DNA from: Zopfochytrium polystomum
Taxonomy: Eukaryota > Chytridiomycota > Chytridiomycetes > Chytridiales > Chytridiaceae
Assembly: GCA_025765615.1 (NCBI GenBank)
Contig: JAIVFJ010000042.1
Location: 186,001 to 250,000, forward strand
DNA: 64,000 bases
Reading direction: 5' to 3'
The translations under genes and the position numbers were made by a program. Under the pieces are notes generated by a model that was not told the DNA's origin, made no database searches, and saw nothing but the letters and a program-made list of their open reading frames with translations. This document shows positions 6,848 to 29,788 of this stretch, piece after piece. Position 1 is the stretch's first letter; every line of letters begins with the position of its first letter.

Positions 6848-7178
6848 ACGGTGTTCCTTTTGTTTTCTTCACCTGCGTGTGCACCTTTTTCTTTTCCCGA
6901 TGTTGTCGGTAGTTCTCTCGCCCTCGCTTTCCTCAGTTGTATCCGCCCGCCTTTGCGTTTCGCGAAACCAAACACCCATCCCTCTCGCGTTCCCGTTTCA
7001 ATGCCTTGACGCCTTCGACGTTTGGGCAGCTCTTCCCCAATCAGCAAAAGTGAAAATCAAGAAGATACGCCCGTCTCCAAATTACTTACAATTCTGTCCT
7101 CTTCTCCCTTCCCTCTTGCCAGCAGCCAGTGTTCCCCATAAGTTTAAAGTTTTTTAAAGTAAGCAAACTTGCGTTCCA
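6848..7178. other. Convergent 3' intergenic region
   Basis: Short spacer between the convergent Cys-rich gene and topoisomerase II. A minus-strand open stretch at 6838-7047 is rich in Lys/Arg and could in principle be an alternative topoisomerase II C-terminal exon (a GTAAGC word lies near the annotated stop), but an in-frame stop comes first and I treat it as 3' UTR. Confidence 0.4.
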
Positions 7179-10100
7179 TTAATCAGACTCCAAAGCGGCA
7201 ACCCGCTTACGTCTGCCCCCGCCCACCTTCTTTGCAGCCACCGCGGTCGTCGCGGCGACGGTCCCGGTCTTGGCTTTCCTGTGATCGTCGCTCTGAAGCC
7301 CTTTCTCGAAAGCCTGCGAGAGCGAGTTTGGTTCAGCGTTGTCGGGCAAAAAAAAAAGGTTTCTCTGCCCCCTCCGCGAACCTCATACTGCTCAGCAAAC
7401 GCGTCCAGGTCGAGCTTCCAGAGGTCTGCCGGAGATTGCATGCGAAGGCTGGTCATCTCTTCTTGTTTCTTGTCCCGCTCCTGCTTCAATTGATTCACCT
7501 GAATTCACGCGAGACAGGCCAAAAAAAAAAAAAAAAAAAAAATAGAAGAAATTAAGAAATATCGGCAACCGCAAGCAAACCCACAGTCTCCAGTTGGCCT
7601 GCAAAACACACGTACCCGCTCCATCGTTAAACTCCATATGGGCATGCTCAACAGATAGTCATACTCCGCCGTACCATCCACCGCCGCTTTGCCCGCCGCT
7701 CCGGCCACGCCCTTGCCGTCCTCGCGGTGGTTCGCCGCGTCCACGACGCCGCCCGCCGCTACGGCGGTTCGCTTCGCGCCGGGGGCCGAGAGCGCCGACG
7801 CGGGCACGTACCCGCGCTGCTCGAGGTCCGCAAGCACGTCCGCCTTCTTGCGGTTCTGCACGCGCAGCCCGCCGCCCACGACGTCCACGATGAAGCGAAC
7901 GCGGTTTTCTAGCCGCGTCCACTCTGCGGTGAGGCGGGCGAGGATCGCGTCCTGGTGTTTGGCATGCGGGGCGCCACCAGTTATTTAGAAGAGGAAACAT
8001 GTCGCAAAAGGAACATAAACGGGAAAGAAAATTGGCGGATGGAAAAACGAGGACGGTGGGAGGGAGGGGGGTCTTTCAAACCTTTCGCAGTTGGTAGTAC
8101 TTCAGTCGAATAGGATAAAAGTCTTCAATCAACTCTTCTGGGGTGTCGTACTTGCGGATTCGGCCGTGCAAATCAAAGGTCACGAGGTTGGACGTGTTGA
8201 CGGTCGAAACCAGCTTAAACCTTTTTTCCAAGCCTTCCTCTTCGGCAGCTGCCATATTCTCTTCGGTGAGTGTTACGACAAAGTCGACGTGGGTATCACT
8301 ATGATGCTCTTTGAAGTCCTATTATCGGCGCAAAGTCGTGTGTGTGTGTTTGAACAGTCGGGCTGTTACGAGCTTTGTCAAACGAAGAAAATAAGCAAAG
8401 CCAAACCTTTATCCACGCCGGCTGCTTCTTCAAATCGTCCCCGCCCGTCATCCACCCGTCCAACATCTCCTTGTACGAATGCGTCCACATCTTTACCGGA
8501 AGCTCCGTAATGCGAACCTGGGTCTCTGAAACCTTCTTGATCACCCCCGTCGAGCGGAACTGGCCCTCCTTCTCTCCAGGCTCGATCGTGCCGCGAAACC
8601 CCCGGTACCAAGGCTGCATCGGGACGGTGCGCTCGCCGCCCATCAGCCGATAAAGGTTTTCGACAATATCGCGGGGGCTGGATGGGAAATCGATCCGCGC
8701 TGTAAGATACGACAGGATGCTCCGACTGGGTGGGCTTACTTGTAATTTGGGATGGTGGTGGACCACCCCGTTCCGATGCCGTCCGCGCCATTGACGAGAA
8801 TCATGGGAAGGATCGGCATGTACCTTTTTCGCGCAATGTTTCCGATCCCATCTTAAAAAAAAAACAAAAGGAGCCGAGCCGCCTACCACTCAGGCTCAAT
8901 GTCCTGTCCGTCGTCGTTCAGATACTTTAAAAGCTCATCGTCGTCCGGATGGTATATAGTTCGCGCGAGCGGATTTAGCATTGTGAAGATGTAGCGAGCG
9001 CTGGCGGCGTCTTTTCCACCCTGGCAGCAATGATAATTCAGCACAACCGAAAAGGAAAGCCGAAGGTCGGGTACCTGTAACCTGGTTCCAAACTGCCCCC
9101 GCGGCTCCAAGAGGTGGATGTTGTTTGATCCCACAAAGTTTTGCGCCATTCCAACAATGGTCGAAAAGAGACTGGCTTCACCGTGATGGTATGCCGAGTG
9201 TTCAGACACGTAACCGGCTAGTTGAGTGACCTGAAGGGTTCATTGAGTGGGCTTGCGCAAGGCCAAAAAAAAAGAAAAAAAAGGCAAGATGGACACCTTA
9301 ATTTCGGATTTGAGGTTGCGTTTGAAGCAGCAGTACAGGATTTTTCTGTGGCCCGGTTTGAGTCCATCGATAGAAGACGGGATGGATCGAAGATTATCCG
9401 CTTGAGAAAACAGGATGAATTCCTTGTTGACGAACTCGGAAATAGGGATTTCTCGAACGCTGTGGTCCATGTAAGTGCCAGGCTATGTAGAATGTCAGCG
9501 CATCCAAAGCAGTCGTTGTAATATACCTCCAATTCTTGCAACCACTCTTTTCTTTCGTCCGCCTTCTTCTTGTTGAAAGCCATGTCAAGGAGGTGCCGGT
9601 CTTCATCGTTGAGAACTTTGAACTCTTTTCGGTGCAAATCCAAGTTGGAAAAGTACGCCTTTGCATCCTCGGCGGTTGAGGTACCCAGACCCTAAGGCGT
9701 TTTCGTATTCAGTAAACCGGCGTTGCACAGTCTTGGATTTTTGGATTGAAACCTTGTAGTATTTCACCGTCCAGCCTTTGCCATCAGCATTGTTCTTTTT
9801 CCAATGCTCGAACTCAGGGATGGTGAAGAAGTTTATTGGTTTGTGATGCGTCGTCCTTGCTTTCGGTGTGACCTGAAGAGAAGTGTGTCGAAGAAGGTAT
9901 GGCCAAACCGTCAAATCAAAGTCGATTCGATGTCTCCAAATTTGCTTACTCTTATAATAGGCGTGATAAATTCCAACAAAAAGCCTGGAATTTTCAACAA
10001 ACTGGGCCAAAAATGCTCGAAAAAATTGATAATCAAGCCCTTGATATGAGACCCGTCGTGATCCTGCCAATCAAAACAATGCCCCCGGTTTTGTTAGTCA

Positions 10101-11987
10101 AGGTCAAAATGTGCAAGCTGGGAGAGGAGGCAGCCAACCACACCCTAAAATCACCTGATCCGTCATAATCATAACATGTCCGTACCGCAGCTCCTTCGTA
10201 GATGTGTATACTTTTCCCTGCTGCAACCCAATGATCTGCTTCAACGCCGTGATCTCCGCGTTCCCGGCCACCTGAGCGTTCGTCGCGTCCCGCACATTGA
10301 GCAGCTTCCCGCGGAGCGGAAATACGCCGTACTCGTTGCGCCCGACCACCGACAGGCCCGACACCGCCAACGACTTCGCCGAGTCCCCCTCGGTCAGGAT
10401 GAGCGTGCAGTCCGAGCCGGCGCGCGTCCCGGCCAGGTTCGCGTCATCCAGCTTAGGGATCCCCGAGATGCGCGTTGCCTTGTGGCCGTCCGTTTTGCGC
10501 AGCGCTTGGTCGGACTTGAACTTTGCGAAGGCGAGAATGTTTTCGATGACGCCCGTCTTGGAAACTATTGTTTGGTTTGTTCCCCATGAAGAACAGCGGA
10601 AAATAAGGGAATGTTCCCTAGGTTTAGTGCCACAAAAGGATAGTTTTTGCCACCCAACCTTTTTTAATAAAGTCTTCCGAAACAGTGCACTTTGATCCAA
10701 ACTTTGTAGCCTTCAGTGTCATGCACTCTTTGGTCTGCGAATCAAACGTCGGGTTCTCGACCAAGCAATTTACAAACACCGACAGCTGGTTTTTGACAGC
10801 CGACGGTTTGACACCGGTTCCCTTCTTGTCCTTTTTGTTTGCGATTTCCGCCAGACCCGCTACGATGGGATCGACGACGTGCGAGACGTGGGTGCCGCCC
10901 TTAGACGTGCATATGGAGTTGACGAACGAGATTTGTTGGAACGACCCGTCGCTGCTTGGGGCGACTGCAATCTCCCATCGGTCATTCACGCGCTCATAAA
11001 TGACTGTTGGCGCAGGCACAGCGGCAGCGTTGGGATCGACCGAGTTGCTCGAGCTTGACCGGAGAAACATGTTTACATAGTCTTTAAAGGACTTGATTTT
11101 AATGCGCTCGCCGTTCAAATATACAGACACGCCGGGGACGCAGCCAGCAACGTCGAAGACCCGTTTATGGAAAAGCGCGACAATGTCATCATCCAGCGCC
11201 GACATTCCAAACTTTTGGAAGTCCGGCTTGAAGGTGATCCGCGTGAAGTCCTCGGCTTTTTTGACGTTTGTGATTTTTGGCGAATTCGTCTTGCTCATGT
11301 TGTCGGAAAAAACCTTCGAGACGAGCTAGTCAGCAAACAAGGGAAGAAAATTCCTGCACCTCCACCCTTCAAGACCTGCTTGTACTTTAATCCTCGCGAC
11401 GAGTCGCCCGTCTCCACAATAAACTCTTTACTGAATATGTTGCATAGCTTTGCTCCGAACCCGTTCCGACCACCAGTGACTTTGAGCTCAGAGTCGTCGT
11501 AGTTGGACGACGTGAGCAAATTCCCGAATATCAGCTCCGGTACATGCATGTTCTCTTTTGAGTGGAACTCAATGGGAATCCCACGGCCATTGTTGTAGAC
11601 GGATATACTTCCTGCCTCCCGGTCGACTGTGATTTTGATAGTATCCATGGCCGGGTCCCGAACCTTGTTGTCGGCGGCTTCCGCGGACGGGGCGTGGCGT
11701 GCGCGGGGTAGATGGATGGCGGGGTGGAAGAGTAAGGGGGGGCCAAGGGGTGAGGGGAGTTGCGCTCGACTAAGTTTCAACACAGCAAAAGCGCACTCAC
11801 CGTTCACCAGGATTTCGTCGAAAATTTTGTACAGCCCGGGCACCCACGAAACGACCCTGTACGACAAGTCCGCCCCGCCGTCGTTCACCCACATTGGCCC
11901 GGTCTGCCTTTCCACCGACCCAACGTAGGTGTCTGGTCTCAGGAGGATGTGTTCTCGCTGCGTCTTTTTCTGATAAACCTGCGGATC

Positions 11988-12019
<32 letters not shown>

Positions 12020-12492
12020 AAGAGAGCGTCTCACGGTCAATACTCACACGCACGGCGCCTGCCCTTGTTTTTACCTCCTCCACCGTCTTGCGGCCCGCTT
12101 TCCGTTGCGGGGGATCCGCGTCGTCGAGCGCTTTGGCCGCATCGCCGGGGCGCGCTGCAACCTCGTCGTCGTCGGGCTGGCTGTCGTGATCGCTCCTCTG
12201 GGTAAGGTAAGGGTTGGTTGGGTTTGGAGTGGTTGGTTACGGGGCGAGTGGGTGCAGAGTTACTGGAGTGGGCGCTCACCCGCGCGGCAGTCGGCCGCCG
12301 TCGGCCAGGCCTCCCCGCCGAAGCCGACCCCGCCAATGCTGCTGCAGTCGACGATAGCGGACGTCTATGCACGCTCCCGAGGCATGGCGGACGCGGCGGT
12401 GGCGGCGGCGTCGGCGCCCGAACAAGACGCAAGGCTTCGCGAACAGAGAGGAATCTGCCCGCCGCTGCCGAACGCACGGTGGCGGCGTGCAT
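7179..12492 (-). CDS. TOP2: DNA topoisomerase II (type IIA, ATP-dependent)
   Basis: Nuclear enzyme that passes one DNA duplex through another. Eighteen exons, roughly 12492-12280, 12197-12075, 11978-11801, 11677-11376, 11313-10659, 10564-10155, 10063-9950, 9872-9753, 9691-9527, 9482-9297, 9230-9075, 9020-8887, 8823-8740, 8677-8407, 8319-8082, 7951-7616, 7498-7382 and 7292-7179, about 1,300 residues. Visible in order: GHKL ATPase (QKKTQREHILLRPDTYVG, EILVNAADNK, NNGRGIP, TGGRNGFGAKL), transducer, Toprim (EGDSAK near 548; DQDHDGSHIKG near 626), and the winged-helix cleavage domain with the active-site Tyr in ASARYIFT near 881. The N terminus (exons 1-2) is acidic and low-complexity; its start is tentative. 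After the final coiled-coil exon only about 38 mostly basic residues remain, so the usual long C-terminal domain is missing or lies in an exon I cannot recognise. Confidence 0.93.
11997..12027. repeat. (GA)n microsatellite in a TOP2 intron
   Basis: Plus-strand GA dinucleotide repeat, i.e. a CT-rich polypyrimidine tract on the coding strand just upstream of the exon 3 acceptor. It may help define that acceptor. Confidence 0.8.
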
Positions 12493-13449
12493 CGTTCAAT
12501 CTCCTTGAGCAAGGCGGCTGCTGACTTGTCCGAAGTATTGACAAGTTCCCCATTACGGAACACGTGTTCGTTCATGTTCATGTACAATATTTGTTCCGAA
12601 CAGCCTCAATTTCCCCGCTCCCTTCCCGCGCACTGCTCCCCTCCTTGCCAGCCTCCCTCCCCCCTTCGTTGACGCAAACGGCGTTCGCCGCCCATCCACA
12701 CACACACACACGGGACCGGAAGCTCGATAGCTTTCCGCGCCCGGGCTCCCGCAAACAACAGGCAGAAACGGAAAGGTTTGTCCGTGGAGGCGTGTTCTTT
12801 CGGAAGCTGCTTGTAGTAGCGACATCGATTCCAAATCGATTTCTATCTGGAAGTGGGAGCGGCTTTTTTCCTTTTTTTTTGAGCTTTAAATCCGTTTTAT
12901 TTTTTCCTTTTTTTCCTCAAGGGGGCCTCGTCCCTCCGAAAGTACAAAAAAAAAGAATAAGGTCATGGGCGTTTTTGGTTGGTGGCGGGGCAAAAAAGAA
13001 AAATAAGGTGTATGAGAGGAGATGGGGGGCGGAAGTTATGAGGTGCGACCGCAGCTGACACCTCACAACAAAAGCTTTTCATAGGAACCTCTCAGAGGAC
13101 GGGACGGAAATCTTCGGAACACACTGCGGGTGGTTGGGGAGGGGAATAGACCTTGTTTGGTAAGACACATTCGATGGGATGAGGAAGTGAGGGTGCGTGT
13201 ATGTGTTGGCGTGGAGCGTGGGGGCGGAGGCAAAAAAGGCTTAAGAGAACGGCCATCGATTTTTAATATTGGAGGAAAACTTCTTTCTTGGTGGAAGGGG
13301 AGGGAAAGGGGTGGGTAAACACTTGTATTGCTCGGGTGACCCGAGCGGCGGAACAAAAAGCAGAAGAAAACAAACCAGGAAAAAAAAAAAAAAAGGAAAA
13401 CTGGGGATTGAAGTGTAAGAAACTTTATCATCGCTCCCGTCTAGGAAGT
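12493..13449. other. Intergenic region between TOP2 and the pectinase gene
   Basis: Spacer with AT-rich blocks (T-runs around 12865-12915) and no supported gene. It must hold the TOP2 promoter and the 3' end of the pectinase gene, both minus strand. Confidence 0.5.
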
Positions 13450-16400
13450 TTATAAAAGTAAGGCGAAGCCAAACGCAGCAACGAGGGCGGCCGCGCATGG
13501 CGAGAATCCAGTGGATCCGCGAGCCGCGCCGCTGTACAGGATGCCGCTGGGGCTGTCCGTCGGCTTGCTTCCGTTTGTGCTTCCGCCGGCCGAATCGCCG
13601 TTGTCCGAGCCGCCATACGGCGTTGAAGTGCTTGCGTCCTCCTTGCCGCTGCTTGCGCCGCCGTTGTTCCCGCCGTAGGTGTACGTGCTGGCGGTGGCGG
13701 TTGGAGAGCTGCTGGATGCGCCGTTCGATCCGGAGGACGAGGTGCTGGCGCCTCCGTTGCCACCACTGGAGCCACCGTAAGTGGATGGAGTGGTGGTTGC
13801 GGTACCTCCGGAGGTGGGTGTGGCGGTCGTGGTCCCTGGCCCGCCGTTCGGCCCTGAAGACGAGGTGCTGGCGCCTCCACTGCCACCGCTGGAACCCCCG
13901 TAAGTAAGTGGAGTGGTGGTTGTGGTAGGCGTTGTGGTCGTCGTGCAGGTAGTAGTGGGAGAGGTTCCGCCGTTGCTTCCGCCAGTGCTGCCACCGCTGG
14001 TACCCGTAGCGGAAGTCGACGAGGAAGAGCCAGTGGGGCTGGTCGTTCCTGTTGGCGAGGAGGAGCTGCCGGTTAGCTGGGTGCTGGAGCTCGTCGTTCC
14101 AGTGGCAGTGCTTCCGCCTGTGCTGGCAGGGGTGGATGTTGGGGTGGACGTTGGGGGTGCCAGTTCCACTGGAGGATGGCGGCAGCTGCGCAGTGCAACC
14201 CTCGGGAAGCGGGCTAATTCCGGTGCAGTTCGGGCGTATAGGCTGGACGTTGATTCCAGTGAAGGTGAAATTGCTGCACGCGCCGTCGGCACACAGAATG
14301 TAGACGCTGTACTTCGCGTCGCTGGTGATGGTGCCAGAAATGTTGGTCAGGAACACATTCGACACCGGAATACCACCTGTCGGGACGCCGATAGGGCCTC
14401 CGTTCAAGTAGTCCTGTTGAATGTCAATGCCGTAGATGGTGATGGCGTCTAGGATGACGTTCGAGTAGTGAATGTTCCGGACGTATCCGTTGGTTGCGTT
14501 CACAACAGTCTTAATGCGGACACCGTTCTCGCTGTTGGCGATGGTGCAGTTGTCCACGAACACACCGTCAACGGTCGCTCCGGTGCTAATCGACCCAATC
14601 GAGATACCGTGACCACCAATGCACGTGTTGTTGAAGAAGTGAATGTCACCACCCTTGTTGACAGCCATGCAGTCGTCCTGGTTGCGGATGTACGAGTTCT
14701 TGATAGTGATGTTGGTCGCCGAAACGTCAAATGCATCCGTGTTGTGGCCAACTTGCTGGCCGTTCACTGGGTCGCCGTCGGTGTTGTCGACCTGGATACC
14801 GTCAAGGGTGTTGTTGTTGCCGGCAATGCTGAAAATGTGGATCGGAGAGTTCTTGATCGTGATACCCTTGATCAAAGAGTTGGTCGCCTTCACGCGGAAG
14901 AACTTTGGCTTCGGCAGACCACCGTTTGCGCCCAATCCATCCCAGTACTCCTGTCCGTTTCCGTTGAAGCGACCTTCAGAACCATCGAAAGTGATTTGGT
15001 CACCGCCGAGAGTGAACAAGAAGTACGACTTGTTGAAGCTGGTCGAGTGGGACCACGTCACTTCGCCATTCACCTTCACATTCGATCCCGGAAGGAGGTT
15101 GGAGTAGTCAACCAGCGTCTCGTTCGGCACCAGGATAGGTCCCTGAATGACAATGTTCGTCGACTTCAGGCAGCCGGCAAACTCGGCGTACTTCGTGACC
15201 GTGCAGACCGTGGACGAAGGGGTGCTGGTCGGGGCCGTGGACGTTGACGTCGTCGTTCCGGTCGAAGCGGGAGTGGACGTTGCTGTTGTGACCGGCGGCG
15301 AGGACGACGGTGTTGCAGTCGAGGTCGACGTGGCAGACAGCGTTGGTGACGACGGCACGGTCACGGTGCAGACCTGAGGCAGAGGGCTGATACCCGTGCA
15401 GTTTGGACGAATCGGCTGGATGTTGATGCCCGTGAAGTTGAAGTTGGTGCACGCTCCGTCGGCGCAAAGAATGTACACATTGTAGAGTGCTTGAGGCGCG
15501 ATGGTTCCGGTGATGTTCGTCAAGACCACGTTCGAGATGGGGATTCCACCCGTCGGGACTCCAATTGGACCACCGTTCAAGTAGTCCTGTTCAAATGCGG
15601 GTGAGAACAGACGCAAGCACGTGCAAACAAAGATCACAAACTTGTTGGATGTCAATCCCATAGATGGTGATGGCGTCCAGAATGACGTTTGAATAGTAGA
15701 TGTTCTTGACGTAACCATTCGTCGCGTTCACCACAGTCTTGATTCGCACACCGTTCTCACTGTTGGCGATGGTGCAGTTGTCAACGTAAACACCGTCGAC
15801 CGTCGCTCCAGTGCTGATAGATCCAATCGAGATACCGTGACCACCAATGCACGTGTTATTGAAGAAGTGAATGTCACCACCCTTGTTGACAGCCATGCAG
15901 TCGTCCTGGTTGCGGATGTACGAGTTCTTGATAGTGATGTTGGTCGCCGAAACGTCAAATGCATCCGTGTTGTGGCCAACTTGCTGGCCGTTCACTGGGT
16001 CGCCGTCGGTGTTGTCGACCTGGATACCGTCAAGGGTGTTGTTATTCCCGCCAATGCTGAAAATGTGGATCGGAGAGTTCTTGATCGTGATACCCTTGAT
16101 CAACGAGTTGGTCGCCTTCACGCGGAAGAACTTTGGCTTCGGCAGACCGCCGTTTGCGCCCAATCCATCCCAGTACTCTTGACCGTTTCCGTTGAACCGA
16201 CCCTCGGAACCATCGAAGGTGATTTGGTCGCCGCCCAGAGTGAACAAGAAGTACGTCTTGTTGAAGCTGGTCGAGTGGGACCACGTCACTTCGCCATTCA
16301 CCTTCACATTCGATCCCGGAAGGAGGTTGGAGTAGTCAACCAGCGTCTCGTTCGGCACCAGGATAGGTCCCTGAATGACAATGTTCGTCGACTTCAAGCA

Positions 16401-19400
16401 GCCGGCAAACTCGGCGTACGTCGTCACCGTGCATGCAGAGGTCGTCGGCGTGCTCGTCGGCGCGGAAGAAGTCGGCGAAGTGGTGGGGCTTGTGCTGGTG
16501 GCGGTTGTGGCCGTCGGCGAGCTTGATGGGGAGGAGGAGGAAGTCGTAGTAGGCGTTGTTGCCGGGAAAATCGGTCGGCGGAAGTACCCGGCGCCTTTTT
16601 TCACACTCTTTCCGTACAACGTCACCGACTTGAGCCAGGTTGTATCGCCGGTGAAGAAACTGTCGAACGTTGGGCCGGACGTGATGCGTGTCACCCACGC
16701 AGGCCGGCTTGAAATGGTGTCGGCGCCAGGTCCGTAGTTTGTCGTAGTGACCTCACGATACTGCGCGTCCGATGTGTAGTTGATCGCAGAGCTCATGTAC
16801 GTCCAACCTGCCGCCGGAACGCTGTCCGGCATGTACACCGCGTCATAAATCGCCGCTGATCGCTGGCCCCAGACGCGGCCAAGATAGGCTGCAATCCCCG
16901 GGTCGACCGTGATCGTCGAGTTGAACAGCCAAAAGTCAGAGTTGGCCCGCGAGGCAAAGTCGCCACCGTTGGCAACAATGTATGCGCTCTTGCTGCCACG
17001 GACAGTGAACTTGATGTTGTCGACATGGTACTCCGAGTCTTCGAATATAGCGCGGCCGTATCCCCAGATGAAGTCGGTTTCTCCTCGGATGTAACAGTTC
17101 TTGTACCACTGGTTTGTTCCAGAGTAGACAAGGAGAGTGTCCTGGAGCGACAGGAAAGCACAGTTCTCGACGTACAAGTTGTTGCCGTTCATGTAGAAAG
17201 CAGGGGCCTGACCACCAGAGGACAGGGTCGGCGCGGTGTTTTCGAACGTCAAGTCGAACGCCTTGAAGTAGTTGCCGTTCACACGAACAGTGGCGCACTC
17301 AGCGCTCGCGCCGTTGCTGCTTCCGGTGACGTTGGTGTACAGCGCGTTGTAGTACATGTTGGAGATGATGGTCTTGTTGAGGCCATCGCCGACAAGGGTG
17401 ACGTAGTCCGCTGTGACATTGACCTGCTGACCCGAGTAATTACCTGCCTTGATGTAAATGACGACTTCCTTCAAGTTCGGCTTGACAATAGAGTCGAGGG
17501 CAGCCTGGATTGAAGTGAATGCACCGGACCCGTCCTGCGCGACAATCAGCGCGCTGGCGGGGAGGTTGTCTGGGGCTGGGTACGAGGTTGGGGTGGGGCT
17601 TGGCGACGATGACGGCGAAGTCGACGCCGACGAGGAAGTGGGAGACGGTGAGGGTGTCGGTGCGGACGTCGCAGTGGTAGGCGTGCTTGATGGCAACGAC
17701 GAGCTCGCAGTGGAGGTGGGTGTGCTTGACGACGAAGACGAGCTGGTCGCTGGTGCTGCGGTGCTTATGAACGGACGGCGGAAGTAGCCGTCCCCTTTGT
17801 TCACACTCTTTCCGTACCGGGTCACCGATTTCAACCAAGTTGTGTCCCCACTGAAAAAGGTGTCGAAGGTCGGGCCTGTGCTGACGCGCTGAACCCACGA
17901 CGGCCGGGACGCAATCGTTTCGGATCCTGGTCCGTAGTTGGTGGTCGTCACTTCACGGAACTGAGCGTTTACGGTGTAGTTGATCGCAGAAGTCATGTAA
18001 GTCCATCCTGCTGCCGGAACGCTCTCTGGCATGTAGACCAGGTCGTAAATAGCAGCGGAGCGTTGACCCCACACTCGGCCAAGGTATGCCACCATACCAG
18101 GATCAGCTAGAAAGCAATGAAGTGAGAACGCGAAGTAAGACCAATAATGATCACAACGTACAGGTGATTGTGGAGTTGTAGAGCCAGAAATCCGAGTTGG
18201 CCCGCGAGCCAAAGTCACCACCGTTCGCAACAACGTATGCGCTGGACGTGTTTCGCACAGTCAACTTGACATTGTCAACGTGGTACTCCGAGTCCTCGAA
18301 GAGGGCTCGACCGTAACCCCAAATGAAATCGGTTTCTGGTTGATTTATGGGAGATTAGCTCTGGAAGATATCAATGCTTCAAAAAAAAGTAAATGCCTTA
18401 CCTCCACGAATGTAGCACTGGTGAGAAGGTGATGAATTCATTGGAAGCACGTTAATACTCGGTCATTCTCCGTCTCTCACAGCATAATGCACTTACGTTT
18501 TTGAACCACTGATTCGTTCCCTTGTACGAGAGCAGAGTGTCCTGAAGGGACAAGAACGCACAATTTTCGACGTACATGTTGTCACCGTTGATGTAGAACG
18601 CCGGCGCCTGTCCTCCAGAGGACAAGGACGGGGAGGTGTTTTCAAAAGTCATGTCAAACGCCTTGAAATACTTTGCGTTCACACGAACGGTCGCCGTCTC
18701 CGCGCTGGCGCCGTTGCTGCTTCCGGTCACTGTCGTGTACAGCGCGTTGTAGTACAAGTTCGAAATGATGGTCGTGTTGATGCCGTCTCCGACGAGCGTA
18801 ATGTAGTCAGTGGTTACGTTGATCTGCTGGCCCGAGTAGTTTCCTGCCTTGATGTAAATGACGACTTCCTGGCTGTTGGGCTTTGCGACTGAGTCAATCG
18901 CGCTTTGGATCGAGGAAAAGTTGCCGGTGCCGTCCTGCGAGACGACGAGCGCGTTGGCCGGAACGTTGTCGGGATATCGCTTCGCGGGTGTGGCGCTGGG
19001 CGTCGGCTGTGCGCTCGATGTCGGCGTGGTAGGCGTGGGAGACGCGACGGGAGAGGACGACGCGGGCAGAGACGACGACGGTGTCGACGCCGACGTTGAC
19101 GCCAACGATGACGACGACGACGATGTTGACGTTGAGGTTTGGAGATCTCCAGCGGTGCAGCCCTGTGGAAGGGGTGAGATGCCGGAGCAGTTTGCACGGA
19201 ACGGGCCAATGTCGATGCCCGAGAACTGAAAGTTTGAGCACGCGCCGTCCGCGCAGAGGACGTAGGTCGAGTACGTTGCTGCGCTGGAGATTGTGCCGCG
19301 GACGTTCGACAGGGTGACATTGGAAATGGGGATACCGCCGGACGGCACGCCGGTGGGCCCGCCGTTGAGGTAGTCCTGCTCGATGACGATGCCGTAGATG

Positions 19401-20946
19401 GAGATTGCGTCGAGCAGGATGTTTTGGTAGACGACGTTGCGGACGTAGCCGTTTGTTGCGCCCTGGACAGTCTTGATGCGCACGCCGTTCTCGGAGGCGG
19501 CGATGGTGCAGTTGTCGACAAAAACGCCGTCGACGGTCGCGCCGGAGCTGATGGAGCCGATGGAGATGCCGTGGCCGCCGATGCAGGTGTTGTTGACGAA
19601 GGAGATGGAGCCGCCCTTGTTGACGGCGAGGCAGTCGTCCTGGTTCTGCACGTACGAGTTTTTGATTGTGATGTTTGTGGACGACACGTCTGGTTTTGGT
19701 TGGTTTTGGTTGGTTGGTTGGTTGATTGGTTGTTATTAAGCGAGAAGGGAGGGCACACGTCAGTGCGGGGGCACGTGCGCATTTTGTTGTTGTTGTTGTT
19801 GTTGTTGTTGTTTTTTGTTTTTTTTGGTTTTTTTTTGTTGTTTTTGTTCATTTGTTTGTGGGTTTGCGAGCGGTCAGTGATTGGTGGTTGCGCGGACGCG
19901 CGCACAGCAGCGGCGCGTGAAAAGACAAAAACGGTCGGACGGGGGTGGGGCACGAGGTCCACGTGGAGGGCGGTGGAGAGGAAAGGAAATCAATCCCAAA
20001 AATGGGCAAGGCACAAACACACACACACATTGGCAGTTGGTCAGGCCCGGCGCCACCATGCAATGCAATGCAGGCAACAGACATCGAGGGACAGGGACAA
20101 GCCCAGCCTCCCGCGGGGGCCTTATGGTCGGCGCAGCCAGCCACACACACACACACACACGCACGCATACACACACAAACTCACCAAAGGCGTCCGTGTT
20201 GTGGCCGACCTGCACGCCGTTGACGGGGTTGCCGTCGACGTTGTCCACCTTGATGCCGTCAAACACAGAGTTGATGCCCGCCACGCTGAAAATGTGGATC
20301 GGCGAGTTCTTGATCGTGATGCCCTTGATGTACGAGTTGGTCGCCTTCATCTTGAAGAACTTGGGCTGTTTGTTTCGCGTTACATCACAAAGTCAGAGGA
20401 GAGAGCGGATCACACAAAAAGCAAGTGAAGAAGGAAAAAGAGAAAAAACAATATGTCTACCTTGTTGTCGATTCCATTCGCGCCCATCCCGTCCCAGTAG
20501 AGCTGTCCGTTCCCGTGGAACACGCCGTTGGTGCCGTCAAACGTAATATGATCGCCGCCGAGCGTAAACAGGAAAATCGCCTTTGTAAAGTTGACGCCTT
20601 TCGCCCACGTAATCGTGTCCACCACCGTCACCGTCGTGTACGCCTTGAGCGACGACATGTCGATGACGCTGTCCGCCGGCACCGTGAACGGTCCTTGCAG
20701 CACAATGTTGGTCGACGACAGGCACGTCGATACGCCAGAGTACGACGTGATCGTGCATGGCGTCGTTGACTGCGCGCGCGTGAATGTGTCGGCGGAGAGG
20801 GTCGGGAAGAGGAGGACGAGGGCGAACGCGAATTGGAGGAGGAGGCGGGGAAGGCTTGCTGCTGCTGCTGCTGCTGCTGTTGCTGCTGTTACTGCTGTGG
20901 TTCTGCCGGCGGCCATCTGCCGCGGGGTTTGCCGCAGCACTCGCAT
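13450..20946 (-). CDS. Giant secreted multi-module pectinase: GH28-CE8-CE8-GH28-GH28
   Basis: Predicted extracellular pectin-degrading protein joining polygalacturonase (GH28) and pectin methylesterase (CE8) modules. Exons: 20946-20461, 20365-20185, 19689-18497, 18417-18402, 18335-18162, 18106-15642, 15586-13450; about 2,216 residues once one extra base in the GGGGG run at 14153-14157 is allowed for. Signal peptide: hydrophobic stretch LLLQFAFALVLLFPTLSA. Each GH28 shows HNTDAFD, NQDDC, GGHGIS and RIKT. Each CE8 shows FLSLQDTLL, GETDFIWGYGRA and YLGRVWGQ. Modules are joined by Ser/Thr/Pro linkers, likely O-glycosylated. The last 100 or more residues are a Ser/Thr/Gly stalk ending in a hydrophobic tail (AAALVAAFGFALLL) typical of GPI-anchor signals, so the protein may be wall- or membrane-anchored. 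CE8 would strip methyl esters so GH28 can cut the chain. I am sure of the domains; the single-polypeptide model rests on unbroken frame and phase. Confidence 0.88.
14180..15215 (-). other. GH28 module 3 (intronless)
   Basis: Almost the same protein sequence as module 2, with scattered conservative changes only. It is followed by the Ser/Thr/Gly stalk and the GPI-like tail. Confidence 0.88.
15375..16440 (-). other. GH28 module 2 (one private intron)
   Basis: Near-identical to GH28 module 3 but carries a 55-bp intron at 15587-15641 between the GIDIQQ and DYLNGG codons. Modules 1 and 3 have no intron there. Confidence 0.88.
16560..17565 (-). other. CE8 module 2 (intronless)
   Basis: Pectin methylesterase module with the same catalytic motifs as module 1 but no introns at the corresponding positions. 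Confidence 0.88.
17800..18960 (-). other. CE8 module 1 (with three introns)
   Basis: Pectin methylesterase module. It is split by introns at 18418-18496, 18336-18401 and 18107-18161, the first two flanking the 16-nt micro-exon. It retains Gln-Asp (QDTLL), the nucleophile Asp (TDFIW) and the Arg of LGRVW. Confidence 0.85.
18402..18417 (-). other. 16-nt micro-exon in CE8 module 1
   Basis: The coding-strand exon TGCTACATTCGTGGAG is flanked by CAG upstream and GTAAGG downstream. It supplies residues CYIRG plus one base, restoring the CYIRGETDFIW block seen uninterrupted in CE8 module 2. Confidence 0.85.
19150..20770 (-). other. GH28 module 1 (with two introns)
   Basis: Polygalacturonase fold, interrupted by an intron at 20366-20460 and a 495-bp intron at 19690-20184. 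The latter splits the NTDAFD motif and is rich in (GT)n, read on the coding strand. Clearly more divergent from modules 2 and 3 than those are from each other. Confidence 0.85.
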
Positions 20947-21935: not shown

Positions 21936-23981
21936 CCAACCCATTCTCCACACTCTTCCACACTCATCACCAATCATCATCGTTCAAGTCGCCACTTCGA
22001 CCCCTCTCGATTCTCTTTTTCTTTTCTTTCTTTCTTTCTTTTTTTTTTTTTACTGCAAAGAGCTCCAATAATTCGCTCCTTCTTTGTATTTTACACCACA
22101 TTGAAAGTGACTATCACGACGAGGCGCATGTTTAGAGGAAAAGGTACAGCAATCCACCAAGAACATTGCATTTTTTCAAGATCGGATCAAAAAAAAGAAC
22201 TTGAAAATAAAGTTGATCCCAATATGAACAAAACCTGCGTGGCAGCACCGAGGCGCTTCCTTCGCTTCTTATGCATCTTTGAGCTACTGTTGTGTTTTGG
22301 GAGTCTTTACCTTTGTGTTTCGCTCTGTTTGCAGTTTGGTTTGTTGGAGTTCGAGTGCAGAGAGAGCATCCACAGCGTTTCCCTTCAGGTTGCAAGTCCA
22401 TCTTCTGCCAGGGTTAGGTAGTCCTGTGGGACTGAATTTCGACTTCTACCACTTTGTGACATTCACGTCCTTACTCTCAGCTGCAGCCATGACCAGACCC
22501 ATCACAAGTCCCCCTGCAAACCATTGGAAAAATCAAAGAAAAAAAATATAATTATTTTTTCTTTTTAATAATGCTCTTCCTGTTCAAACTGGCATTCGCT
22601 GTGATGAAAGAACAACTCTTGGGCAAATGCCTTTCAATAACAAAAGCGCGAAAAGAAAGTGCTCCGCATTTTTATAGGCTTTTGATTTGAAACGGTGATG
22701 GAAAAGGAGAAGCAATGAAGAGGAGAGGGTGACCTCCGAAACCCCATTTACTTTCATATACTTTTGTGGATCAAATAAAAAGATCCAGGTGGGATCAATT
22801 TGTTGAGCGACTTGAGTCTGTCTCTTGACCTTTTCTTTTTGATAGTCTGCGGCAGATTATAAATTTTGTTCCATGTCATATACTGCGGTTTTGATATGTC
22901 ACGTCCTCACACAAACCTGAAAACAGGGTTGAACCACTAACAGAAAGGAGATAGTGAACATGTTTTGCAATACAACTGCCATAACGCTGCATCCACCGCA
23001 ACATTTAGCATCATTAAAGTGCTTTCAGCAACGATGTGAGCACGCTGACGGTGAGATAATGATCTCAGCTGTAAGTTGATTTTCTACAGAAACCAAATTT
23101 TCGATTTTGAATAACTTTGATGAGCTGCACCGTGCACTTCGGTGAATACGTTTTTCCCGCGTCGTGGCAACAATCGTTTGATTAGCTGGCTGGCAGCAGG
23201 CGACCAAGACTGTGGGGCTGCTGCTGCTCAAGGGCTGAAAGAGTGAACGTATATACTGTATATTAAAACATGCGATATCGTCCATGTTATTGGGGTTCCC
23301 ACTCGAGGAGCTCGACTTATTGCTTGAAGGAGTCCGCTACTGTTGCTGTTGCAGGCTGTCCACCCCGCTCAAGCTGTGTTTTTATCCATTACTATATACC
23401 CGCCTCCTTCCCTCCCTCCCTACCTCTTCTCTACCCAAGTTTTGGTAATCAATCCAAGTCCAAGTCCCCTTGCACGTATGCATGTTGCCTGCCAGTGAGC
23501 AGGGTTGTGGGTGCGTCCCATTGGTATAACAGTAGTTTCCACGACGCAGGAATTGTCAGTCAAACCAGCTTCCGCATCGCCACGGGTTCGTATTCGTGCT
23601 GCTCTCTCTTGCAAGCTCCAAACACTCGAGGAGTTTGAATTTTTCTTTTTTTTTGTTTCGATTCCCCTTGTCTCTTCTTCGCACAAGCTCCCTCCCCACC
23701 CCATCACTCACTCGTACTACTTGCGATTCAACCACCACAAGACGCGCACGCCCGCAGTCTGGACAGAGTCAAGGGCAAAGGGCAGTAGTACGGGGAGGGA
23801 GGAAAGGGCAGGGGAGGAGGAGGAGCCGATCACCACAGGCACTACTGGCCGGCAGCGATCACACCTCCTAGTCATCAAACCCTTACCTCCGCCTTGCCCA
23901 CCCACCACCAGCCCACTCACCTCGACTCCGCTACCTACCGCTGCTGCTGCTGCTGCTGCTTCTGCTGCTGTCGCCGCTGCC
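20947..23981. other. Three-kilobase gene-free spacer with GA microsatellites
   Basis: No supported gene. Long (GA)n tracts lie at about 21150-21201, 21701-21737 and 21899-21928, and a TCTG tract near 21425-21450. The stretch 22440-23300 is AT-rich and featureless to my eye. A CTG-type triplet run at 23939-23970 lies in the 5' leader of the next gene. Confidence 0.55.
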
Positions 23982-25265
23982 ATGAGACCTGCGACTCGTT
24001 CCTCCTCTCCCAGCACGTCCGGCGGCAGTGGGGCAGGAGTTGGTGGTCGGCAAGCCGTCGGCATCCACCATGACAAACCGCCCGTTGGCAACCCCCGACT
24101 GCCACAGCCGACCTTCCATCCCACGGGCGGGGCTGTCGGCGGCGGTGGAGCAGGAGGACTCGGAGCAATCGTCCGCCCCGGCGACCACTACCCCCAACCG
24201 CCCGAATCGGCTTGGAACCACCACCATCACCAGCACCCCGCCGGCCCCGCCCCAGGCGGCACGTCCATCCAGTTCAGCTCGTACCAGTTCCCTCCCCCCG
24301 CCGCGGGCGGCGGGCCGCCCCCTGCAAGCGCTCGCACCAGCATCAGCGCGACCACCACCCGCCCACTGCCCCCGCCCGCCCTTGCCACCGGCGGCGGCGG
24401 CGGCGGCGGCGGCAGCGTCGCACCACCAGACTCGCGCAGATCGTCCCAGTACCGGACATCGTTCTCCCACGTCGACAACTCCCTGTACAACGCCGGCGGC
24501 GGCGCCGCACCGCATCCGCCGGACTCGCGCCACGAGTCGCTGGTGTCACGGCGAAGTTCCGAGGTGTACCGGTTCCCGCCGCCAGCGGGCGGCGTCGGCG
24601 GCGGAGGAATGAGTTCGCGACGCCGCTCCAGCATCGTCACGCACTTTTCGCAGCTGGCCGCCGCCGCCGGCTACCCGCCGGCCGCCGCTGGCACGCCGAA
24701 CCGCCGCCGCTCGTCCTTCATCATCGACGCGGCGCTGCAGATCGGCGCAAACAGCGCGCCGCCCGTCCCCGCCGTGCTGTCGCGCTCCGCCTCGCAAAAC
24801 ACAAACACCGAAACCCTCGGCTCCGCCATGGACCTCCAGCCGCTCTCCGACCGCTACTTCCGCTCGCCGCTCTACGCCCTCATCGACCGCAACACCTCGT
24901 CCACCCGCAACCAGCTGGCGGTCTCCGCCGCGTTCTTTGCGCTCAACCTCCTCGGCCTCGTCGTCATTGTAAAGTGCGTCTTCAACGTCAACATACCAGG
25001 AATATGGGCATTCAACTTGGTCCACTTGGTCCTGTCGCTGCTCGCAAAGAACCTGATGGCGAACGGCACCGAGCTGGCCCACGTCTCGGCAAAGGCGCTC
25101 GTCGCTGCGAGCCTGGTCAAGACGCGTCTAGGCGTGCCCCTGTCGTCCGTCAGCTACCACTTTGGCAAGCTCAACCCGGCGAACGGACGCATCCCGCGCG
25201 CCGTGCTGTACGCATCCATCATTGCCCTCGAGGTTGTCATCTGGATCCTTCAGTACCAAATGGTT

Positions 25266-25312
<47 letters not shown>

Positions 25313-27041
25313 GTGCGCGTGTGTGCGCGTGGATTTGGTCTTTGTCTTTTATTGTATCCACTGGTTTGTCGTCTTCGTGTCTTTTTCCCTTGCTGACACA
25401 TACTCCTTTGTTGGCCCCTTTGGAACTTGCTCGAACGACCACATCGCCGCCACACACGCGAATAATCCGCTGTTGTCGTGTGATTGCTGATCACACACAC
25501 ACCCACACATACACACACCCACACATATACCACGCACGAACACACACACACCCACACACACACACACACACACAAACGCACACATTTGCACACACCCGAC
25601 CTTCAAGGAATGGTACCCAGTGTTCACCTACGCCGGAACGTACCCGTGCATCCCCGCCGTATACAGCAACGTGACCATTTCCGAGGACCAGGAGCCCACG
25701 GCAGAAGACCTCCGGACTTACCTCTCCGGCACGGCCAACTTTGGCTCCATCTACTCTTACGGCCTGCCGCTCGGCGACGGCCTCGTGGGTGGGTACTCCG
25801 CGATCCCGCTCGCGGCACCCAGCAACCCATTCCACATAGAGAGCCGCGGCGTCATCTACACCGTCAAGGTCCTCTGCAGCACCGCGGTCCCCGTCGTCCC
25901 ACCGCGGTCCTGGCCCGTCGGCGCGCCGACAAACAAAGTCCTCTTCCGCCTCGACAGCAACGAGATCTGGTCCGCCCTCGTCACCAGCTCAATCACAATA
26001 TACTACCCGGCCTGGGCCCACACCGACCTCGAAAACGCGGCAAGAGGACTGCAACAGGAGTGCTCCTTCCTGGTCCAGTTCCGCCAGGCGGACCGCATCG
26101 TCTACAGCTACCGCGCCGACGAGTGGCTCCGCAACGACGGCGGCACCATCTACGAAGTCGCCGTCGGCGACGCCGTCATCGACCGCCGCATGGACGACAC
26201 AGTCTACGCCGGCTTGTTCCTCGACCCCACCCTCGACACCGACCCTATCCTCGCCCAATCCTCCCCCTCCACTTTCCTCCTCCCCCCCGCCACCGAACAA
26301 ACCCTCATCGCCGCCGTTGGCCGCGACGTCAAAAAAGTCTTTGCCGACGCCACCTGCGACCCGCTCGCCCCGCGCTCGACTTGCGGCATCCTCAAGTGGT
26401 CCGCCCGCCCCGACGGCGCCATCGACCCCACCCGCTCCGACAAGGCCGTCGCCGCCATCGCCGCAAACATCGCCCGCCGCGTCCTCGCGGAGGGAATGAC
26501 CTTTGCCCGCGACGCCTGCCGCTACTCGGCCGAAACGGGGGCCGGATACGTCGGCGCCCCGCTCTGGGTCGAGAACTTGGTCTTCCTCTGCGTCGCCGTC
26601 GCCGCCGCCGTCGGATCCCTCATGTGCTTGCACTACTACGTCGCCGTCGGTAGCGAAGTCGCGGCCGTCGACCGCGCGGGGAGGATCCTCGAGGACCCCT
26701 TACGGCTGCTGTACGCCGTGCGCGACGGCCTCGCCGCGCTCGTGCCAAAAGTCGCCCCGCCGCCCCCCAGGCCGCCACGCCGTCGCCGCAGGATGAGCAG
26801 GATGAGCGCTGGCGCCGCCGCCGTCGTCGAGGAGGAGGACGAGGACGGGGACGGGGACGAGGACGCCGCCCCGCGCACAAGGGCGGACTGGTGCTCCGCC
26901 GCGAGGCTCAAGATGCACATGGAGGGCATTCTGGTGCGGTTTGGCGAGCTCAAGGCCACTCGCGGCGACGAGGTCGGCCGGCTCGTCCTGGACAGCGTGG
27001 GGAATACCGTCAAAATGCGCAAGGACAGAGAGTACGAGTAG
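23982..27041 (+). CDS. Multi-pass membrane protein with long disordered cytoplasmic N terminus
   Basis: Function unknown. Two exons, 23982-25262 and 25608-27041, 904 residues. I chose the first ATG after the upstream triplet repeat; the frame is open further upstream but low-complexity. Residues 1-290 are Gly/Pro/His/Ser-rich with several RRxS sites (RRSSQ, RRSSE, RRRSS) fitting basophilic kinase targets. Membrane segments near 311-333, 341-360 and 405-427 precede a folded, probably luminal or extracellular region of about 320 residues (Cys at the start and end). One more membrane helix (about 748-772) follows, then a cytoplasmic tail with a basic Pro/Arg patch and an acidic stretch. The 345-bp intron has (GT)n at its 5' side and (CA)n at its 3' side. 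No known family recognised. Confidence 0.72.
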
Positions 27042-27513
27042 TTGGCGCGGTCGCTCGAATGAGTTTTTGAATGGCGTTCGGGAAGGCTTGACTTGTTGGG
27101 CCAACGTCCAATGTTTTACGTGGCGCGGAGGGGGAGGCAGCGGTGACAGGGGCTCTTGGTACAGCTCCTTCCAGATCTCCACTGCGTCGTTTCTTATTAC
27201 TATTTTTCTCTTTATTTTCGCGTTTCCCTGTTACCAAAACACCTTTCCCAGTCTCTTGATTTTTTTTTCTTTTTTTTCCCCCTCCTTTTTTCGGTCGGCG
27301 ACACACTCAGTTGCTGAACGACAGCGTGACCTCACTGACTTTCCTTCCCCTCATTCTGTCACTCGAACGAAAGGGGGAGGAAAAAACTATTGAATAAACT
27401 TCATTTCGAAGATGGCGAAAGTAGTAACTGTGAATGTCGATTGCATGATACGGTGCACATAGTCCACACAAAATGAGGATATATGTTTGTTGGCGTGTCG
27501 AACCGAACCGGGA
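27042..27513. other. Convergent intergenic region
   Basis: Spacer between the plus-strand membrane protein and the minus-strand coiled-coil gene. It holds an AATAAA-like word near 27393 and T-rich tracts; no gene seen. Confidence 0.5.
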
Positions 27514-29788
27514 TTAAGGAAAGGAGCCCAAACGGCTCGGTGCAGCCTTTCCCGCTTTCGCCGACACGCGGTGCTTTTGCGGAAGGAAACGCTCTATCCT
27601 TCCCACCAAAGAAATAAAGCGAAAAGCACGTGCACTGAATCTATAGTGTTTATCCAATGTCATTTTCCCCCGGAAAAAAACCGATGCCACAGAAGCCACC
27701 ATTGCAGAGAACGAAAAGCCGTAGCCCCCTACCTTCTCGACAAGCTCTCCATCAAAGATTTCTTTCGTCCCATACACGGCAACCAACTTTCGCTTCACCT
27801 CCGTGCCTCCAATTAATCCCGGCATGATGACCACGCACCGGCCTTTGGATACTTTCCCGCTTTCAATCGTGTCAACTTGGCTGAAGTAATCCGGACAAAA
27901 GCTGAACGAGAGCGGGGGCTCCACGAGTGCAGACTCCACGGACACCGCCAGGAGGCTGCCAATCGCCTCGAGCAGAGAGCCGTCCCAACCGTATCGAGGC
28001 GTTTTGCCTCGTCGTCCAGTCGTTCCCATCAATACCTCAAGAGTTTCTTTAACGTTTTTGTCAATCTGCGTGAGTGCCGGTTCCAAAGTAATGGACGCGG
28101 CAACGCCGTCGCTGCATCCGGAATAACCTAAAGACTCGGAATAGGCGTTCTTCTCCAGTCTCAATCTCTTGATCAAGTGGAACAGCAGTTGGCGGACTTG
28201 CTCAGCCGAGCTCGCCTGGAGGAAGCCGGTGATAAGTTTCTCTGAGCGGTCGTGGACTTCTGACCCTTCATTACTGTGGCTTGCGTCAGGAGCTCCCATT
28301 AGTCGGGCAATCTGCTTTCGGCGGGCAATAACAGACTGATACCCAAGCTCAAAAACAGACGACCAAAGTTGCTCCCAGTATTCAATGGCTCTGAACTCTG
28401 AGAGGCTCAAGAACGAATCGGCCAAATGTCGACAGAGATCAAATGAGACTCCAACTGAGTGAGTGTCGAGCGACCGCATCTGCCCGCTCATGGTGGCGAT
28501 TTTTGAAAGCAATTCCCCATGATCTTCTCTCAGATTTCTCAGTTCGACTTCGCTGTGTTCAGGTGAGACTTTAAGATGATAGTTAAGACCTTCGTACCTT
28601 CGTACTTTGTGTTCTTTGAGCGAATTATTTTCCATCGAGATTGAATCAATCTTCACTTTAGCCTGATTGAGCCAGTCTTGGAGTTTGGCTTCGTTTTGTT
28701 TTAAAGCCGTGAGCTCGCTCTGAAATTCTAAAACAGCGTGATCGTATTGCTGAGTCAGAGTTCCAAGGCCAGCTTGAAGAGTTTTTGCTTTCCTGAAATT
28801 AACACTTCAGCTCAAAGAAAGTTTTGATCACGCGAAGCGCTCAAGCACCCTCACATTTGAAGGACGATATCTGTCTCGAAGCTTTTAATCTGGTAGTAGT
28901 AAGCGGCGAGAGTCGTTCCGAAGATATCGATGGCGCGCTGTTTTCCAACTTTTAAATGTTTGCATTCCTTGAAGCGCTCCTCCTCACGCTCTCGCAATGC
29001 TTCTCTGCCAAAAAAAAAAAAAAAAGAAAAAAAAAAAAAAACCAAACAAAAACCAATGAGGAGAAAGTTAAAACCACGGCGACGAGAGTCCCAACAAGCC
29101 CAGGGCATACGAGTACCTCAAAAAGTTTCGAATGCTTGGTTGCGCTTCCCGCGAAATCGGCCGACGCAAACAGCAGCTCCACAAACGGGTCGATCCAGCC
29201 CTCGTGGAAGTCCAGCCAGGACCACGCGAGGATCGACTGGCCGGCGAGTTTCACTCGCTTCGTCATGAACAGCACCGACTGCTGCTCGTCGCTGTAGCCG
29301 TCCGACGGCGACGACGACGACGACGGCTCTGGCCGCTCTGGCCGCCGCCTCCGCCGTAGGATGCCTCGAAGCCCCGCGCACCGCTGTAGGCTGGCGACGA
29401 GCTCGGGATGCGCGTTGGCTGCGGCGGCGGCGCAGCAGACGGTGTGTCGGTCGTTTCCGGCGTCGCTGGTGACGAGCGTAGCTTTTTTTTGGCTGTCCGC
29501 CCCCACCGCCGCGGGTTCACCCGCTTCGTGTCCCCTCCTTCCTCTTGCTCCTTCTCCCGATGCTTCTTCGCCGCGGTCGGCTCCGTACGCGTGGGGCTGC
29601 CCTCCTTCAGCAACAGGCCCTTCGCCTTCATGATCCATCAACGTCGGTGCGGCGGTGGCGGGCTCGCAGGCTTCTTCTTCGGCTGCGGTGGCTGATGGTG
29701 CGGGTGGTGGTGGTGGTGGGTGTGTTGCTGCTGCTGCTGCTGCTGCTGCTTGGTCGCCGCCGTCGCCGCTGCGGTCTCGCACGTGCAT
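27514..29788 (-). CDS. Coiled-coil protein, paralogue G1 of a divergent Hsp70-linked pair
   Basis: Unknown family; clear paralogue of the gene at 30425-32388. Exon 1 (29788 to about 29120) has an Ala/Pro-rich start, then a conserved block (KRVKLAGQSILAWSWLDFHE, then WIDPFVELL). Exons 29004-28855, 28792-28598 and 28552-27514 encode a coiled coil (EREEERF; ELTALKQNEAKLQDWL) and a conserved C-terminal domain (HGELLSKIATMSGQMRSLD; KLITGFLQASSAEQVRQLL; LMGTTGRRGKTPRYGWDGSL; CVVIMPGL). Exon 2 is 150 nt in both paralogues, but here its best acceptor is out of phase with the exon 1 donor, so this copy may be damaged or use a site I missed. The C-terminal 60 residues differ from the paralogue. The neighbouring Hsp70 exon starts 435 bp away on the other strand, implying a shared promoter. 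Confidence 0.6.

Follow-up and report, generated by a model that had tools for sequence, protein, structure and literature searches.

Can a single fungal gene carry five catalytic modules for the breakdown of pectin? The question is raised by a locus on the minus strand (14159-20946) of a 64,000-nt stretch of Zopfochytrium polystomum DNA, taken from contig JAIVFJ010000042.1; this whole stretch is called the window, and gene coordinates are window positions. A first-pass annotation had described there a spliced frame in which polygalacturonase (PG) modules of family GH28 and pectin methylesterase (PME) modules of family CE8 follow each other in the order GH28-CE8-CE8-GH28-GH28, joined by Ser/Thr/Pro linkers, with a signal peptide at the start and a glycosylphosphatidylinositol (GPI)-like tail at the end. 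In this work, we analyzed the gene model, its modules, their relatives in the genome and the comparable systems known elsewhere. The splice model and the order of Pfam matches in the translation agree with the five-module arrangement, and we consider it likely, as judged from the sequence, that this gene of a zoosporic fungus encodes a multi-catalytic pectinase that is secreted and bifunctional.

Gene model and module order

Joining seven exons (20946-20461, 20365-20185, 19689-18497, 18417-18402, 18335-18162, 18106-15642 and 15586 onward) yields a single open frame of 1,981 aa. The six introns between them (20460-20366, 20184-19690, 18496-18418, 18401-18336, 18161-18107 and 15641-15587) measure 95, 495, 79, 66, 55 and 55 nt in 5' to 3' order and are all of the GT-AG type. 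The start codon and a signal-peptide-like N-terminus lie at 20794-20946 (aa 1-51, with an alternative Met at aa 11); hydropathy places the hydrophobic core at approximately aa 34-48, with its peak at aa 37-47, after a long Ala-rich n-region, and the protein is probably secreted. There follow GH28-1 with two introns (19151-20766; aa 61-402), linker 1 (18974-19150), CE8-1 with three introns (17769-18973; aa 462-796), linker 2 (17574-17768), the intronless CE8-2 (16569-17573; aa 862-1196), linker 3 (16443-16568), GH28-2 with one 55-nt intron (15368-16442; aa 1239-1578), linker 4 (15212-15367) and the intronless GH28-3 (14186-15211; aa 1631-1972).

All six introns fall within modules, and all four module joins fall within unbroken exons: exon 3 holds the GH28-1/CE8-1 join, exon 6 the CE8-1/CE8-2 and CE8-2/GH28-2 joins, and exon 7 the GH28-2/GH28-3 join. 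None of the four joins therefore rests on splice prediction. The introns, in turn, are checked independently by the sister modules, since the alignments of GH28-1 with GH28-2 and GH28-3, and of CE8-1 with the intronless CE8-2, have no internal gap across any of the six splice junctions. Taken together, these results indicate that the predicted five-module pectinase is real and well constructed as a gene model.

The catalytic modules

Five intact catalytic modules behind a signal-peptide-like start in a single polypeptide are well supported by the sequence. All modules scored above the Pfam cut-offs (22.9 bits for PF00295, 27 bits for PF01095), with 259.7 bits (E 4.8e-77) for GH28-1, 195.7 bits (E 1.4e-57) for the exon 6 part of GH28-2, 263.9 bits (E 4.7e-77) for GH28-3, 132.4 bits (E 1.8e-38) for CE8-1 and 140.8 bits (E 5e-41) for CE8-2. 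By piece, Pfam-A matched GH28 at aa 87-390 and CE8 at aa 470-755 within the first 800 residues, CE8 and most of a GH28 in exon 6, and GH28 in exon 7, where the piece including the end of GH28-2 reached 1.8e-89. At least two pectin-active catalytic modules, the defining feature of a multi-catalytic pectinase, thus share one reading frame. No dockerin or scaffoldin, as a cellulosome-like component, was matched by Pfam in the four pieces scanned.

The first-pass annotation had also described all GH28 and CE8 catalytic motifs as apparently intact, and the alignments to solved enzymes and between sister modules confirm this. GH28-3 matches the NTD, QDD, GHG and RIK of the endo-PG 6kve (phmmer E 2.1e-73), and the NTD/DD/GHG/RIK letters, which we take to be the catalytic motifs of GH28, are identical in GH28-1 and GH28-2. 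Among solved structures, the nine closest to GH28-3 all bear the name endopolygalacturonase or polygalacturonase, and the three GH28 modules are predicted to be endo-PGs. In CE8-2, all six residues compared with the carrot PME 1gq8 (E 5.8e-19) are matched (Q113, Q135, D136, D157, R225 and W227, to which we ascribe the catalytic roles), and CE8-1 carries the same six letters. Across 26 CE8 sequences, Q148, D149, D171, R237 and W239 are invariant and correspond to five of these six positions; the first catalytic Gln appears in neither the invariant list nor the 90% list. An AlphaFold2 model of CE8-2, built on an alignment with 25 bacterial relatives (predicted local distance difference test, pLDDT, 80.7; predicted template modelling score, pTM, 0.85), adopts a right-handed beta-helix PME fold: of 15 Foldseek matches with E<=0.001, 14 were PME chains, including 1xg2 (E 2e-17) and 1gq8 (E 4.4e-16), and one, at rank 13, was E. 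coli ybhC.

The solved relatives also show how the modules differ from the known enzymes. GH28-3 aligns over nearly its full length with the fungal endo-PGs 6kve, 1nhc and 1czf (E 2e-73 to 2e-63), whose solved chains are, however, single catalytic domains of about 335-360 residues. Likewise, CE8-2 shares its fold and catalytic residues with the PMEs of carrot (1gq8), tomato (1xg2) and Aspergillus niger (5c1e), but these are single-domain proteins with 24-28% identity to it; CE8-2 reads LGRVW where 1gq8 and 1xg2 read LGRPW.

The linkers and the single-domain family in the genome

Could the modules be separate genes, each translated alone, or separate enzymes released from one precursor? The four linkers bear on both possibilities. 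As delimited for this comparison they span 45-66 aa (the bounds given above are slightly shorter), they consist of Ser, Thr and Pro to 66% (linker 1), 82% (linker 2), 87% (linker 3) and 78% (linker 4), and they contain neither a Met nor a stop. Separate genes are suggested by the family at large, as the GH28 genes at the loci retrieved from the genome generally have a single domain; linkers of this length without a start or a stop, together with joins that each lie within an exon, have nearly refuted this explanation, which we regard as scarcely tenable.

The second possibility is that the precursor is cleaved near the linkers after secretion, so that the working enzymes have a single domain and the fusion merely keeps their ratio and their joint secretion. 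Every module is complete on its own, the linkers are long and of low complexity, and dibasic pairs edge three of them (KR ending linker 1, and RR ending each CE8 module directly before linkers 2 and 3). In contrast, no dibasic pair was found in the sequence of linker 4, and linkers of the Ser/Thr/Pro type are commonplace in secreted multimodular enzymes that are stable, so that we consider cleavage unlikely.

The genome searched comprises 80.16 Mb in 761 contigs. Its chitin synthase (21 exon matches) and radial-spoke protein genes (8 matches, 7 over the cut-off) identify the organism as a flagellated fungus. It holds at least 82 exon-level GH28 matches and at least 9 CE8 matches. The contig of the window (C42) is the sole contig with both families at one place; C15 carries both, about 370 kb apart, and no second GH28-CE8 fusion was found among the profile matches. 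We retrieved 27 loci (22 GH28 and 5 CE8), leaving out weak GH28 places on C71, C7, C478 and C232. Three contigs carry near-identical versions of one cluster of three tandem GH28 genes (L017 on C50, L018 on C121 and L019 on C443; 92-99% DNA identity), and the adjacent genes on these contigs are separate, with stops and at least 0.8 kb between them. The loci L032/L034 and L033/L035 likewise form near-identical pairs. These clusters and pairs may be either haplotypes or recent segmental duplications; for the five-module gene, a second copy was not found. One single-domain PG related to the modules (L028:1919-3900) has a linker rich in Ala, Thr and Ser and, in addition, a C-terminal stretch containing Cys.

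Divergence of the modules and distribution of introns

The modules are related to different degrees. GH28-2 and GH28-3 share 93.5% of their protein sequence, GH28-1 shares 69.5-71% with either of them, and the two CE8 modules are 81% identical. The ratios of nonsynonymous to synonymous divergence (dN/dS; Nei-Gojobori) are low, with 0.075 for GH28-2 versus GH28-3, 0.22 for GH28-1 versus each of the other two and 0.094 for CE8-1 versus CE8-2, and the modules have therefore been kept under constraint since their duplication. Synonymous divergence is 0.47 between GH28-2 and GH28-3 and 1.1-1.3 for the remaining pairs. In a maximum-likelihood tree of the three modules and 22 of 23 family genes (L041 was dropped for gaps; rows were projected on GH28-1, a possible source of bias), the modules form one clade with an ultrafast bootstrap (UFBoot) value of 87, GH28-2 and GH28-3 group with a value of 100, and a wider group with L025, L028 and L038 receives 90.

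The introns were compared with those of 23 GH28 genes from 17 loci, the divergent L026, L027, L037, L040 and L042 and a weak second match in L029 being left out. At the site of the second GH28-1 intron, 20 of the 23 single-domain genes carry at least 50 extra nt, and 11 of the 23 have GT-AG at the identical place and phase. At the site of the first, at least 45 extra nt were found in 21 of 22 evaluated genes, 17 of which have their GT-AG displaced by two bases upstream relative to GH28-1. These family-typical sites are retained by GH28-1 only: GH28-2 and GH28-3 are without both, CE8-2 is without the three introns of CE8-1, and the stretch made up of CE8-2, GH28-2 and GH28-3, the 3' half of the gene, is poor in introns. 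A step through cDNA in the origin of this 3' half is plausible. None of the 22 genes evaluated has an intron at the exact site of the 55-nt intron in GH28-2 (20 gapless; L025 and L028 continuous there). L025 and L028 are among the nearest relatives, and insertions of intron size lie nine residues (L025) and six residues (L028) upstream of this site, so that an old intron that shifted is as possible as a gain.

Integrity of the locus

Several observations speak against taking the gene exactly as assembled. First, the DNA of GH28-2 and GH28-3 is 89% identical, with some stretches at 100%, and this identity is patchy, falling from 88-100% in codons 1-200 to 62-88% beyond them (20-codon windows). 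Three repeat families lie within the locus, and near-identical repeats of this kind are places where assemblies can err. In addition, a search of the genome with the DNA at 13500-18100 gave no full-length match other than the locus itself, so that a second allele was not recovered, and the flanks searched (6000-12500 and 23000-29000) likewise showed no second haplotype. Besides, the C-terminal tail does not continue the frame of GH28-3, and displacements of the frame also occur in other members of the family, as described below.

The repeats could mean that two or more neighbouring pectinase genes, or a gene with fewer modules, were mis-joined through near-identical sequence. Against this stand the four linkers, which are distinct from each other and each open in frame, the synonymous divergence of all module pairs, which even at its lowest (GH28-2 versus GH28-3) is excessive for the reads of one module placed twice, and the intron private to GH28-2. 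The same assembly also kept the tandem GH28 genes of the C50, C121 and C443 clusters apart. We therefore regard a mis-joined locus as very improbable. The patchy identity suggests an exchange or gene conversion between GH28-2 and GH28-3 over about the first 200 codons.

The C-terminus is a different matter. The tail (13450-14145), which in translation is rich in Ser, Thr and Gly and ends in a GPI-like hydrophobic stretch, is one base out of register with the GH28-3 frame, and the Ser/Thr/Gly/Pro content by frame places the switch between 14159 and 14145. The earlier claim that one frame reaches the GPI-like end is thus not sustained by the DNA as assembled, and, as the tail is out of frame, the claim that the enzyme is cell-bound through a GPI anchor finds no support there; whether the protein has a GPI-anchored C-terminus depends on the offset at 14145-14159, which is either a sequence error or real. 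The tail had no Pfam or NCBIfam match. An intron bridging the two frames was also considered: seven GT-AG pairs could in principle do so, and none was convincing, as the candidate donors (GTCCAG, GTTGCA, GTGGAA and GTCCAC) are unlike the six donors of the gene itself.

If the offset is real, the protein would have no GPI tail and would be freely secreted with a basic, out-of-frame C-terminus, and the gene may be at the beginning of decay at its 3' end. In favor of this, the GH28-3 frame as assembled stays out of the tail and continues, rich in Arg, His and Gln, beyond 13450. The tail frame, however, retains a clean Ser/Thr/Gly/Pro coding signal as far as the point of the switch, followed by the GPI-like end and a stop. 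In addition, 5 of the 23 paralogous genes (two of the C443 cluster, L019, plus L029, L039 and L043) show displacements of 1, 1, 4, 1 and -2 nt between the pieces matched by GH28-1 in tblastn, within coding sequence that is conserved. The near-identical C50 and C121 copies of the two displaced C443 genes show no displacement in the same test; compared directly with these copies (92-98% identical), the C443 genes have several gaps, some of one base, a comparison in which coding and intron sequence are not separated. Frame breaks of a single base are thus not rare among the members of this family in the present assembly, reflecting either base errors or decaying or broken members, and this makes a sequence error a fair alternative for the tail without proving it. 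On balance, we consider a real offset possible, if somewhat unlikely.

Comparison with other pectinases

Is the combination of a methylesterase and a chain-cutting enzyme new? The first-pass annotation had allowed that fusions of two modules exist, and bacteria indeed provide them. A scan with a four-sequence CE8 alignment, in which GH28 was detected by a profile built from the GH28 genes of this genome, covered the best 80 of 208 bacterial relatives (26-35% identical), and in at least six of these 80 loci GH28 lies in frame with CE8. By their record titles, L081, L090, L099 and L102 are from Planctomycetota, L103 is from Phycisphaerales and L123 from Humisphaera, both of which we take to belong to the same phylum. 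Pfam confirmed CE8 and GH28 over the cut-off in all three fusions scanned (L081, L103 and L123). These proteins resemble the Zopfochytrium gene in uniting a pectinesterase and a GH28 in one polypeptide; they differ from it in having two modules in the order CE8-GH28, and their CE8 is 28-30% identical to CE8-2. A recent transfer of CE8 from the bacteria searched is unsupported, as no close source was found with the single sequence and the best 80 relatives are all as distant as stated. Three further candidates (L087, L089 and L092) were rejected as fusions, the GH28 profile scores on their CE8 frames of 327-329 aa being weak (E 4e-4 to 9e-4). Additional GH28 frames near L081, L099 and L103 suggest pectin-utilisation clusters, and a metagenome-assembled genome of Terriglobia (L074:4698-8507) encodes a single protein of 1,270 aa that combines CE8 with a GDSL lipase and a pectic acid lyase.

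In the available sections of PMC12109409, a secreted CE8-PL9 protein of 2,089 aa, of the PmeC5 type, is described from Butyrivibrio fibrisolvens D1. As presented there, it is likewise a very large secreted pectinase that combines CE8 with a chain-cutting pectinase and attachment domains, but its cutter is a PL9 lyase rather than a GH28, and it is bacterial. Since both the Planctomycetota CE8-GH28 proteins and this CE8-PL9 protein pair the two activities, the pairing occurs elsewhere and is not new in kind: a methylesterase and a pectin cutter on one chain are already known in bacteria.

In fungi the situation is different. According to the part of PMC5428031 available, a survey of cellulose, xylan and chitin enzymes plus lytic polysaccharide monooxygenases, multi-activity proteins are, relative to bacterial degraders, extremely reduced in fungi and mainly assemble similar domains, with Orpinomyces as a notable exception; such enzymes share with the present one the presence of several catalytic domains in a fungal protein. 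The available portions of PMC4494064 and PMC6690862 treat the pectinase families of Gonapodya and other zoosporic fungi and name no multi-catalytic pectinase, and the terms "multi-domain", "multimodular" and "fusion" are absent from the text of PMC6690862. A classification of fungal GH28 is given in the accessible part of PMC8952511, from whose text "fusion" and "domain architecture" are absent, and nothing decisive was found in the corresponding parts of PMC11131199, PMC3124978 and PMC9926174. No fungal GH28-CE8 fusion was found in the open-licence PMC literature searched, with which the initial statement that no five-module anchored pectinase has been described is consistent. Altogether, the enzymes belong to ordinary kinds; unusual for a fungus are the length of the chain, the combination of two activities and the history of the introns.

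A possible origin and role

How might such a gene have arisen? An endo-PG gene of the locally expanded family may have fused with a divergent CE8 gene; internal duplication accompanied by intron loss would then have produced CE8-2, GH28-2 and GH28-3, and an exchange between GH28-2 and GH28-3 would have come later. In the encoded protein, the CE8 modules would strip methyl esters from homogalacturonan and the endo-PG modules would cut the freed stretches, a scheme that follows from the established enzymology of GH28 and CE8, and tethering would hold each product and the next enzyme together. It is tempting to speculate, if only tentatively, that the protein is a covalent "pectinosome" tethered to the surface, a fungal counterpart of the cellulosome whose GPI-anchored chain bears five modules with two activities, by which pectin at the rhizoid wall is de-esterified and cut, and that it grew by module duplication and intron loss and is restricted to some zoosporic fungi; we hold this broader picture to be doubtful. 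For the question of whether a covalent link between de-esterification and cutting is of advantage on methylated pectin, a flagellated fungus with a PG/PME chain of five modules would offer a natural test case. The gene is, in addition, a record of module duplication, one half keeping the family-typical introns and the other being without them.

Neighbouring sequences

Downstream of the pectinase gene, a gene at about 8000-12240 (minus strand) presumably encodes a type II DNA topoisomerase, to judge from its motifs. It has a DNA relative on C2 (424551-428193) that is about 65-76% identical in pieces, and the genome seems to hold two such genes. A candidate palindromic element at about 25.26-25.6 kb was rejected, since the reading frames there resemble GT/CA microsatellites. 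Finally, the neighbouring reading frames at 27514-28806 and 30425-31507, also on the minus strand, are about 67% identical in DNA and represent a local duplication.

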